64,000 nt of DNA from Halalkalicoccus jeotgali B3 (GTDB lineage Archaea; Halobacteriota; Halobacteria; Halobacteriales; Halalkalicoccaceae), in the NCBI RefSeq assembly GCF_000196895.1, contig NC_014297.1, positions 2,463,770-2,527,769 on the forward strand, given 5' to 3'. How positions within the stretch are numbered: the stretch's first letter is position 1; each line of letters begins with the position of its first letter. This document shows positions 43,331 through 51,393 of this stretch, in pieces. The notes below the pieces were generated by a model that was not told where the DNA came from, made no database searches, and worked only from the letters and a program-made list of their open reading frames with translations. A program made the position numbers and the translations under genes.

Positions 43331-43474
43331 GGCTTAACCGTGATTCGGGGGTAGATCCTCCACTCGCTGGGAAACGGGCACCAGCAGGCACCTGCTACCG
43401 TCGGGTCGCAGGCAGGAATGTGGTCCGCGCGACCGGGCGCGGACTGAACCACCCAACGCCCGTGGTGATACCCA
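43331..43474 (+). promoter_or_regulatory. Promoter and structured 5' leader of rpl15e
   Basis: A GGCTTAACC element at 43331-43339 would start transcription near 43357, giving a leader of about 118 bases, long for a haloarchaeon. Hairpin 1 pairs AGCAG (43383-43387) with CTGCT (43392-43396). Hairpin 2 pairs GTCCGCGC (43423-43430) with GCGCGGAC (43437-43444). ACCAC at 43448-43452 can pair with GTGGT upstream (43420-43424) or with GTGGT downstream (43462-43466). The downstream partner overlaps GGTGAT at 43464-43469, a good match to the 16S 3' end five bases before ATG 43475. Confidence 0.55.
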
Positions 43475-48729: not shown

Positions 48730-49131
48730 TCAGGCGGATCGGCCTGCGGCGACCACCGCCCCGATCACGAGAAGGAAGGCAACGAGCGCCATGTTCGGGA
48801 TCGAGAGGCCGAGCAGTTCGTACTGGATCGACGTACAGCCCCCGCCGATAGAGCAGGTCCCCCCGCCGACGCGCTGAATGGCCGAGTGATACGCCGCAAC
48901 CGTCGCGCCGGGGATCGCGAGCGCGAGCGCAGTCGGGTAAACCCTCGTGTTTCCTTCGAACGCGGCGATCCCCAGTACGGGGACCAGCGGATACATGAAG
49001 ACCCGCTGGTACCAGCACAGCTCACAGGGGACGAACCCGAGGCCCTCGCTGAAGTAGAGGCTGCCGGCGGTCGCGACCGCTGCGAGGAAGGTTCCGAGGG
49101 CGAGCCACTCCCGCGAGCCGAGTCGGGGCAT
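48730..49131 (-). CDS. dsbB: Disulfide bond formation protein B (DsbB)
   Basis: This 133-residue protein has four membrane helices and the two cysteine pairs of DsbB: CELC (C36, C39) in [10 protein letters not shown] and C93/C99 in [13 protein letters not shown]. The CELCWYQR string is diagnostic. It passes electrons from exported DsbA-like proteins to quinone. A DsbA-like partner is not in this window. It is in the same direction as the alpha/beta hydrolase gene after it. The 345 bases upstream form the hairpin array. Confidence 0.94.
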
Positions 49132-49218
49132 TGGAAGGGGTTTCGCACCCCAGTGTGAGAACGGTTACTGTTCGTCGGTTGTGCAGTTCGACTGTGTGGG
49201 TGCGGTGGCCGGCGCGAA

Positions 49219-49467
49219 CGCGGGCGGCACTTCCGCCGCCCGCGTGAGCGGAGCGGGGAAAGGCTGGTACCCTACGCAGCTGGCCGATCGGCCAGCTGCG
49301 CACGCTGTCTGGCGGTCTTCGGAAATCTTCGATTTCCGGGACCCAGAAAGGGCGCTCCGCGCCCTTTCTGATGGACATGCAAAGGGCGAGCAGGGCGAGG
49401 TTGCGAAGCGACCTCGCTTGCGAACGGGACGCTTCGCGTCCCGTGAAGCTGACCCGCCAGGGTCAGC
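49219..49467. repeat. Array of seven consecutive hairpins between aCPSF1 and dsbB
   Basis: Seven hairpins sit almost end to end in 249 bases. Their coordinates are 49219-49244 (9 bp stem), 49275-49300 (26-base perfect palindrome, no loop), 49314-49343 (8 bp inner stem GGAAATC/GATTTCC plus outer GGTC/GACC), 49345-49369 (11 bp, loop TCC), 49395-49417 (10 bp with one wobble, loop GAA), 49424-49444 (9 bp, loop TTC) and 49448-49467 (8 bp, loop GCCA). Stems differ in sequence, so this is not one element repeated. The array starts 10 bases after the aCPSF1 stop. Function is unknown. Confidence 0.85.
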
Positions 49468-49476
49468 CGAGGGCGT

Positions 49477-51393
49477 TCATTTGAAACGGAACGTTTCGAG
49501 GTTCTTCGGGGCGAAGGTGCGCATGTTGTAGTTGTGATAGAGCGCGCTCGAGAGGTCCTGCACCGAGCGTTCGTCGCCGTGGACACAGAGTACCTTCTCG
49601 GGGCGGGGGTTCATCGTCTTGACGAAGTTCTCCAGTCCCTGGCGGTCGGCGTGGCCCGAGAAGCCGTCGACGGTTTCGACGTCGAGGTTCAGCTTGAGCC
49701 GGTTCGAGCGCCCGCGGCTGTCGTTCATCGGGATCTCGTCGCGACCGCTCTGGATCCGCCGGCCCATGGTCCCCTGGGCCTGATAGCCGACGAAGATCAT
49801 GGTGTTGTCCGGGTCGGGACCGAGGTGTTCGAGCCAGGACATGATCGGGCCGCCGGTGACCATCCCCGACGTCGACAGGATGATACACTGCTCGTCATCG
49901 GCGACGCGCTGGCGTTCGTCCTCGCCGCCGTCGATATGGTTGAAGTAATCGGCGAGAAACGGGTTCTGGTCGTCGTGGAAGATCCGATCCCGGACGTCGT
50001 CGTTCAGGTACTCGGGGTAGGTGGTGTGGATCGCGGTCGCCTCCCAGATCATCCCGTCGAGATGGATCGGCATCTCGGGGATCTTACCCGTCCGCATCGC
50101 CTCCTCCAAAACGAGCATGATCTCCTGTGAACGACCCACCGCGAACGCGGGGATCACGATCTTCCCGCCGCGGTCGTAAGCCTCGCTGATCGTCTCGATG
50201 AGCTTTTGCTCGGAGTCGCTCTGGTCGGTCTGGTAGTCGTTTCGGCCCCCGTAGGTGGATTCGAGCACGAGCGTCTCGACTCGGGGGAAGTCGTTGACCG
50301 CGCCGTTGAGCAGGCGCGTCTCGTCGTAGTGGATGTCCCCCGAGAACGCGACGTTGTACATCCCGTTGCCGATGTGGAAGTGTGAAACGGCCGAGCCGAG
50401 GATGTGACCCGCGTTGTGCATCGTGAGTTTGACGTCGGGCGCGATGTCGGTGACGTCGCCGTACTCGATGGGGATGGTGTGTTTGATCGTCTCCCGGACC
50501 ATCTCCGAGGCGTAGGGCGGGGTCCGGCCCTCCTTGGCAGCGACGTCAAGGTAATCGAGCTGGAGCAACCCCATCAGGTCACGGGTGGGCTCGGTGGTGT
50601 AGATCGGGCCGTCGTAGCCGTACTTGAAGAGGAGTGGAAGGAGCGCCGAGTGGTCGAGGTGGGCGTGAGTCAGGACGACGGCGTCGATCGAGTTCGCGCC
50701 CGAACCGAGCGCTTCCGGGACCTGGAGGTACGGAACGTCGTCCGAGCCGGGCTTGTCCCCACAGTCGATCAGGATGCGGGTGTCGGCCGTCGAAAGAACG
50801 AAGGCGGCCCGCCCGACCTCGCGACAACAGCCGAGCGTACTGATACGAACCCACTGCTCTTCGGAGAGCTGTTCGCGGTGGATCTGGCGGCCGACCCGTT
50901 CGAGGATGTCTCGACGGTCGTCGCGTTCCTGTTTGAGGAAGCTCCGGACGTTCGAGACGGTTGGCGATTCGATCGGCGGCGTACGAACGACCTCGGGCGT
51001 CCAGCCGACCTTCTGGGTGATCTCCCGGAGCGTCGATCCGCGCCGGCCGATCACCATCCCCGGTTTCTGGGCCTCGATAACGACCTCGCCGGTGTCGGCG
51101 TGGAAGTCCAGATCGGTGACGCCGGCGTCTTCGGGGATGACCGATCGGATCTGCTCGCGGGCCTTCGCCGGCGGCGCGAGGACGTCGGGGTCCGGGCGGA
51201 CGGTGATACGTTTGCGGAGCTTGCTCGCGAGCTGCCGGACGAGATCGCCCTGCTGGGCGAATTTCTTGGGCTCGCGGGTGTAGACGACCAGCTCCGGTCC
51301 CTCGTAGGTCACATCGGAGACGGAGATATCCGCGGGGATCTCGTCTTTGATCGTTTGCAGTGCGTCGTCGAGTTTCTGATCTACCGTGCTCAT
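49477..51393 (-). CDS. aCPSF1/FttA, KH and beta-CASP ribonuclease
   Basis: 638 residues from ATG 51393. A KH-like N-terminal part (about 1-180, with PGMVIGRRGS at 111-120) precedes a metallo-beta-lactamase domain (HAHLDHS at 243-249) with an inserted beta-CASP domain, closing with HxxH-type residues and LYHNYNMRTFAPKNLETFRFK. Archaeal aCPSF1 (FttA) is the general transcription-termination and 3'-end endonuclease. It is complete. A long open frame continues upstream (51394-51699) but reads as Pro/Arg/Ser-rich noise. The hairpin array follows 10 bases after the stop. Confidence 0.96.
   Translation of the reverse strand: MSTVDQKLDDALQTIKDEIPADISVSDVTYEGPELVVYTREPKKFAQQGDLVRQLASKLRKRITVRPDPDVLAPPAKAREQIRSVIPEDAGVTDLDFHADTGEVVIEAQKPGMVIGRRGSTLREITQKVGWTPEVVRTPPIESPTVSNVRSFLKQERDDRRDILERVGRQIHREQLSEEQWVRISTLGCCREVGRAAFVLSTADTRILIDCGDKPGSDDVPYLQVPEALGSGANSIDAVVLTHAHLDHSALLPLLFKYGYDGPIYTTEPTRDLMGLLQLDYLDVAAKEGRTPPYASEMVRETIKHTIPIEYGDVTDIAPDVKLTMHNAGHILGSAVSHFHIGNGMYNVAFSGDIHYDETRLLNGAVNDFPRVETLVLESTYGGRNDYQTDQSDSEQKLIETISEAYDRGGKIVIPAFAVGRSQEIMLVLEEAMRTGKIPEMPIHLDGMIWEATAIHTTYPEYLNDDVRDRIFHDDQNPFLADYFNHIDGGEDERQRVADDEQCIILSTSGMVTGGPIMSWLEHLGPDPDNTMIFVGYQAQGTMGRRIQSGRDEIPMNDSRGRSNRLKLNLDVETVDGFSGHADRQGLENFVKTMNPRPEKVLCVHGDERSVQDLSSALYHNYNMRTFAPKNLETFRFK

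Follow-up and report, generated by a model that had tools for sequence, protein, structure and literature searches.

The window, a stretch of 64,000 nucleotides from Halalkalicoccus jeotgali B3, carries a dense array of hairpins directly behind the gene for aCPSF1, and the locus raises the question of whether this array belongs to aCPSF1 or is one instance of something more widespread. The sequence-only reading of this DNA had left both options standing, proposing either a structured 3′ UTR, stability element or feedback target of aCPSF1, or a genomic palindrome family. All seven stem-loops that it had described were found in the window, and the observation proved stronger than stated. The array has a folding energy of −168.7 kcal/mol, compared with −125.2±5.6 kcal/mol for shuffled sequences (RNA-fold z −7.78 over a 272-nt stretch), and none of 200 dinucleotide shuffles of that stretch folded as well. 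The array also holds 6 of the 32 perfect hairpins (stem of at least 8 bp) in the window, and the runner-up 250-nt bin holds two. The 26-base perfect palindrome at 49275-49300 was confirmed. The hairpin that had been given an 11-bp stem and a 3-base loop is real and has a TCC loop, but its stem is 12 bp long; likewise, the location 49219-49467 was right, but the element is slightly larger and reaches the aCPSF1 stop codon. The features of the locus are as follows.

48730..49131 (−): dsbB-like gene on the other side of the element (open reading frame list; name from the sequence-only reading)
49199..49478 (+): whole composite element, long form, delimited by homology within the genome and the genus; putative folded strand +
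49199..49215 (+): 5′-end box GGTGCGGTGGCCGGCGC, complement GCGCCGGCCACCGCACC in other copies; conserved in the same-genome copies
49213..49250 (unstranded): hairpin 3, variable stem; perfect core 49218-49245 with 11 bp and a 6-nt loop, GGAAGT/ACTTCC
49253..49267 (+): conserved box GCGGGGAAAGGCTGG, complement CCAGCCTTTCCCCGC, from own-genome pattern search and by-eye alignment
49275..49300 (unstranded): hairpin 2, 26-nt perfect palindrome with 13-bp arms; swapped between copies
49309..49317 (+): box CTGGCGGTC, half of the mini-hairpin GTCC-RCCA-GGAC, here split by extra hairpins
49319..49341 (unstranded): extra triloop hairpin b, 8-bp stem-loop at 49320-49338 with TTC loop, of the GGAAATC-NNN-GATTTCC type
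49344..49370 (unstranded): extra triloop hairpin a, 12 bp, TCC loop
49373..49390 (+): core box GGACATGCAAAGGGCGAG, complement CTCGCCCTTTGCATGTCC; the family's most conserved part
49395..49417 (unstranded): extra triloop hairpin, 10 positions with one mismatch, 3-nt loop
49424..49444 (unstranded): extra triloop hairpin ACGGGACGC-TTC-GCGTCCCGT, 9 bp, TTC loop
49448..49467 (+): hairpin 1, 8-bp stem; loop GCCA on +, TGGC on −
49468..49478 (+): 3′-end box CGAGGGCGTTC, consensus CGAGGGCTTTC; overlaps the aCPSF1 stop codon
49477..51399 (−): aCPSF1, the host gene, left of the element

The element opens at 49199 with the box GGTGCGGTGGCCGGCG, and the 3′ end of its + strand lies at the aCPSF1 stop codon, which it overlaps (TCA on +, 49477-49479). 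The aCPSF1 protein of the window is 95% identical to that of H. paucihalophilus. Some of the extra hairpins recur as modules: triloop hairpin b is found at the same place in genome G005 (L364) and in genomes of family f8, a module like the hairpin at 49395..49417 is present in G060 (L314), and the hairpin at 49424..49444 resembles L068 of G005. A known Rfam RNA family was rejected, as there was no relevant match for the window element at the gathering threshold or for six copies at E ≤ 1. Elsewhere in the window, positions 43391-43455 (+) match the eL15 ribosomal protein leader of Euryarchaeota (RF03144, 35.3 bits).

A search of the same genome with the array returned additional copies on the main contig, one of them matching at 74% over 166 nt, and pattern searches raised the count for the Halalkalicoccus genome to about 13. 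About 12 of these, besides the copy in the window, adjoin unrelated genes. The array is thus one long copy of a dispersed element family, and a device private to aCPSF1 is ruled out by the same-genome copies beside other genes. Read in the aCPSF1 direction, the constant skeleton consists of GAAAGCCCTCG, hairpin 1 (20 nt, 8-bp stem, TGGC loop), CTCGCCCTTTTCATGTCCACCAGG, hairpin 2, CCAGCCTTTCCCCGCC, a third hairpin and CGCCGGCCACCGCACC. The architecture is best explained by a minimal unit of approximately 70 nt, which comprises the mini-hairpin GTCC-RCCA-GGAC and a hairpin with tandem G.A pairs and a GNNA loop on the folded strand; in full copies hairpins 2 and 3 are added to it, and in long copies, like the one in the window, triloop hairpins are added within the unit. 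Across many genera the single-stranded boxes hardly vary, and hairpin 1 is constant in length, with a GNNA loop on the complement.

The core pattern matched 34 of 293 Halobacteriales genomes in 13 of 87 genera, and the reversed control pattern matched none. A covariance model built from 42 copies extended the family to 123 of 392 Halobacteriales genomes (51 of 95 genera), leaving two thirds of the genomes without the element. The model found no match outside Halobacteriales among the 247 genomes of a phylum sample. The suggestion of a genomic palindrome family was therefore right, and the search for similar hairpin runs elsewhere, which had been proposed along with it, was strongly positive. 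No copy was found in the phage, plasmid or viral-contig collections searched, and carriage by viruses or plasmids was rejected accordingly. The family is apparently undescribed until now: our literature searches, whose reach mostly excluded subscription journals, returned no description of a hairpin-box family of this kind. In some haloarchaeal MAGs (L155, L161, L109, L137), other hairpin-rich sequence without the family boxes lies behind aCPSF1 and may represent a second family.

The stems differ between copies, yet they stay paired. In the 18-pair structure we counted 144 two-sided compensations, compared with 45 in shuffles, and nearly all of them fall within hairpin 1. The covariation score was 0.505, compared with 0.129 for shuffled and at most 0.07 for slid alignments. 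The box pair flanking the stem covaries too, changing from G-C to A-U in five sequences. Compensating changes in the stems had been named beforehand as a check, and the answer is strongly positive. Strong intergenic covariation is nevertheless no proof of a functional RNA, and here the gene context does not imply that the folded strand is transcribed.

The mismatches point to the strand that folds. Among 45 distinct hairpin-1 stems there are 36 non-Watson-Crick cells, on which this strand assignment rests, and in the aCPSF1 mRNA sense 23 of them are C.T or T.C and 8 are C.A or A.C. On the complement these read as G.A (CGAG/CGAG tandems) and G.T, and the hairpin-1 loops TGGC, TGAC and TAGC become GNNA. 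DNA loops of the d(cGNNAg) and d(GNA) types are exceptionally stable. The complement of the mRNA strand folds more stably in 48 of 49 copies with RNA parameters and in 47 of 49 with DNA parameters, and the hairpins other than hairpin 1 show little strand preference. From the mismatch types, the GNNA loops and the greater stability of the complement, we infer that the folded strand is the complement of the aCPSF1 mRNA, which is the + strand of the window. The form that is recognised is most likely a folded single strand, read through its boxes and shape and not through its stem sequence. A kissing interaction of the TGGC loop of hairpin 1 with the RCCA loop of the mini-hairpin was dropped, since copies with a TGAC loop keep RCCA unchanged. 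An independent small-RNA gene on the + strand was also rejected, as the flanks, read by eye, contain no evident promoter upstream of the 5′ end.

Copies at one and the same site within the genus may carry entirely different stems. Identical hairpin-1 stems occur at different sites in 19 pairs, compared with 0.6 expected from column shuffling, although a few of these pairs are probably one site split by clustering; for hairpin 2 there are 40 such pairs, compared with 0.4 expected. No pair of copies has both hairpins in common, which indicates that exchange is piecemeal. All congeners read at the gyrB-gyrA site have the element; in one of them the mini-hairpin is interrupted by two additional hairpins (about 57 nt), and another contains even more inserted sequence. 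Inserts of this type are found at the same position in f8 genomes and in the window copy. Tandem hairpin-1 units with a 51-nt period occur at L187, L188 and L192, in two different families. Three-base loops read GAA or TTC in otherwise similar hairpins (the window triloops; L316-L318, L322), and this alternation suggests frequent inversion between the arms.

The copies adjoin genes in a characteristic way. Of 112 parsed copies, 66 begin no more than a few nucleotides from the stop codon of a co-oriented gene. In another 31 the left neighbour is read away from the element and mostly starts 37-48 nt off; the spacer resembles a core promoter, with which the element is flush in most of these cases. 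Right-hand neighbours are tandem and convergent in similar numbers. These neighbour counts depend on heuristic, composition-based calling of open reading frames. By homology of the left neighbour, at least 11 sites hold a copy in two or more families, and some of the gene names given here come from sequence inspection alone: aCPSF1, gyrB (gyrB-gyrA), IleRS, RpoL, IF-2B-like, glutamate dehydrogenase, S19e (S19e/PDCD5), and SWIM-like, TPR, FNR-like and small RRYQ proteins. Further copies adjoin EF-1beta, SRP54 and PAN. Old inheritance or selection would account for this recurrence across families no less well than active spread. At L009 (G000:C1, about 1221490) and its orthologues L059 and L062, the element supplies the last codons and the stop of a beta-aspartyl-peptidase-like gene, which at L009 ends QTKAL... 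with TGA within hairpin 1.

The aCPSF1 stop codon is the most recurrent site of the family, occupied in four families (f1, f6, f7 and f8). The element lies behind aCPSF1 in all seven Halalkalicoccus genomes checked, in one of them only as a fragment at a contig end, and in most of the f8 (Natrialbaceae-like) genomes checked the copy behind aCPSF1 is the only one found. Within one f8 genus about 20 of 29 genomes carry it, and in the others it is decayed or absent. Old inheritance with loss, decay and internal turnover explains this pattern best.

Mobility could be seen at one site, the acyl-CoA dehydrogenase gene. In five such genes from four families (L061, L162, L163, L170, L179), direct copies of the 3′ end of the gene flank a short unit. 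In genome G025 a 69-nt unit is flanked by 42-bp direct repeats differing at one base; in G129 the repeats are 31-33 bp, and the last codons of the gene-attached copy are changed synonymously only. Overall, the duplications at these sites are 31-48 bp. In the ten congeners read at this locus, the same tail runs straight into the downstream sequence, with no unit and no duplication. In most copies, that of the window among them, no duplicated target sequence was found within 300 nt. At the CGAGGGCTTTC end, every inserted case except L179 has a precise junction, whereas the other end varies, and the short units keep only the 3′-proximal part of the element. These few examples suggest that the folded strand inserts with its 3′ end leading.

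What has to be explained is a family with this distribution, covariation and hairpin exchange, and one insertion site with empty congeners. Taken as a whole, we consider it probable (about 0.7) that the array belongs, as a long copy, to a family of composite elements of haloarchaea that are miniature, non-coding and mobile. The folded single strand, complementary to the aCPSF1 mRNA, would be recognised through its boxes and shape. On insertion, that strand would be joined to the target by its precise 3′ end, with a possible duplication of 31-48 bp of target. Only copies in neutral gaps, directly abutting stop codons or core promoters, would persist; these would then be inherited, decay and trade hairpins by recombination. 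Mobilisation by an IS200/RAYT system was rejected. The HUH (Y1) transposase PF01797 is absent from the high-copy genomes G001, G004, G006 and G014 and from other carriers, and it is present in 72 of 123 carriers compared with 187 of 269 non-carriers (odds ratio 0.62), so that the association is not positive.

A regulatory role in the aCPSF1 mRNA, whose hairpins would act on termination, stability or self-cleavage, draws on the occupation of this stop codon in four families and on its holding the only match in most f8 genomes checked. The mRNA strand also carries a CCCTTTTC tract, and a T-stretch ending at C has been described for Haloferax terminators (PMC7237163). However, the element is neither restricted to aCPSF1 nor conserved with it: many copies lie at unrelated genes, and about 70 of 80 aCPSF1 loci fetched by name are without the element. 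Furthermore, about a third of the copies lie upstream of promoters, and in 48 of 49 copies the mRNA strand is the less stable one, carrying C.U mismatches in place of the G.A pairs of the other strand. As a general explanation, the structured 3′ UTR, stability element or feedback target proposed by the sequence-only reading is unsupported, and we consider it improbable even for aCPSF1. Some local role at its stop codon may exist, given that this is the most recurrent site and the sole one in most Natrialbaceae-like genomes checked. A terminator in the sense of the left gene is similarly unsupported as a general function by the copies upstream of divergent promoters, and is further weakened by the even mix of right neighbours.

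A host-serving DNA site, comparable to the BIMEs of E. coli, is a serious rival. Such a site would form a topological or transcriptional boundary at highly used genes, as a gyrase or nucleoid-protein site or an insulator, and the individual sites would be kept by selection. The at least 11 orthologous sites, many beside core genes, the position flush with stop codons and core promoters, and the lack of copies in the plasmid collection are in line with this proposal. Against it, there is no clear orientation rule (by eye, about 18 distinct stop-codon sites versus 13 divergent-promoter sites), presence is patchy and accompanied by decay even inside one genus, two thirds of the genomes have no element, and recurrence across families is visible only beside core genes, which biases the list of sites. 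We regard a host-serving site as unlikely, but it deserves to be taken seriously. Passive DNA palindromes whose perfection is maintained by template switching and cruciform repair, with no selection on their shape, would account for triloops of GAA or TTC in otherwise similar hairpins and for the swapping or insertion of whole hairpins, but not for single-stranded boxes that are near-invariant across genera, or for a hairpin 1 of fixed length with a GNNA loop and mismatches of one kind; this explanation is very improbable. There is also a doubtful variant of the mobile reading, in which the family would be an archaeal SINE-like retroposon: a + strand RNA would be reverse-transcribed in trans and inserted by its 3′ end, and the copies would then swap hairpins. 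It rests on the variable target duplications, the precise 3′ end and the variable other end, all in few cases.

With a mobile composite element, haloarchaea would gain an order-wide family of miniature mobile elements whose boxes are nearly frozen and whose hairpins are replaced wholesale, so that shape and boxes, and not stem sequence, seem to be kept. The family accounts for hairpin clusters beside core genes, aCPSF1 and gyrB-gyrA among them, that would otherwise be puzzling, and it includes a recent insertion for which the target duplications are unusually long and no enzyme is obvious.

Among known systems, archaeal aCPSF1/FttA-dependent terminators are similar in that the strand of the upstream gene has a T tract behind the stop codon in many copies, but about one third of the copies precede divergent promoters, at positions that transcripts of the left gene do not cross. 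The REP, BIME and REPIN sequences of enterobacteria and pseudomonads are closer: like BIMEs, the family is an intergenic mosaic of several short palindromic modules, dispersed over the chromosome in multiple gene-adjoining copies. Unlike them, it is order-wide, combines constant single-stranded boxes with freely replaced stems, has no positive link to Y1 (RAYT/TnpA) transposases, which REPIN/RAYT systems would place in many-copy genomes, and shows the long target duplications at some sites. Inspection beside the hairpins found no GTAG- or CGTC-type tag, the tag types named in PMC3733652; the boxes GAAAGCCCTCG and CTCGCCCTTTTCATGTCCACCAGG stand there instead.

MITEs are also small, non-coding and mobile in trans. 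The haloarchaeal element differs in its internal hairpins and in having neither a recognised parent IS, nor terminal inverted repeats (the window copy has only a 77% 13-nt pair inside the variable hairpin 3, and the consensus ends are unrelated to each other), nor a short fixed target duplication, the duplications being 31-48 bp at acyl-CoA dehydrogenase and none elsewhere. Integron attC sites, which often lie just behind stop codons, have variable stems and a folded single-strand shape that is recognised, as is probably the case here; no cassette array or integron integrase was noted for the present family, and the box sequences differ. SINE-type retroposons are known from eukaryotes, and variable-length target duplications are an established feature of target-primed reverse transcription. 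In a few cases the haloarchaeal elements show what may be comparable features, in their long duplications, a near-constant 3′ end CGAGGGCTTTC, a variable 5′ extent that leaves short 3′-proximal units, and a structured strand.
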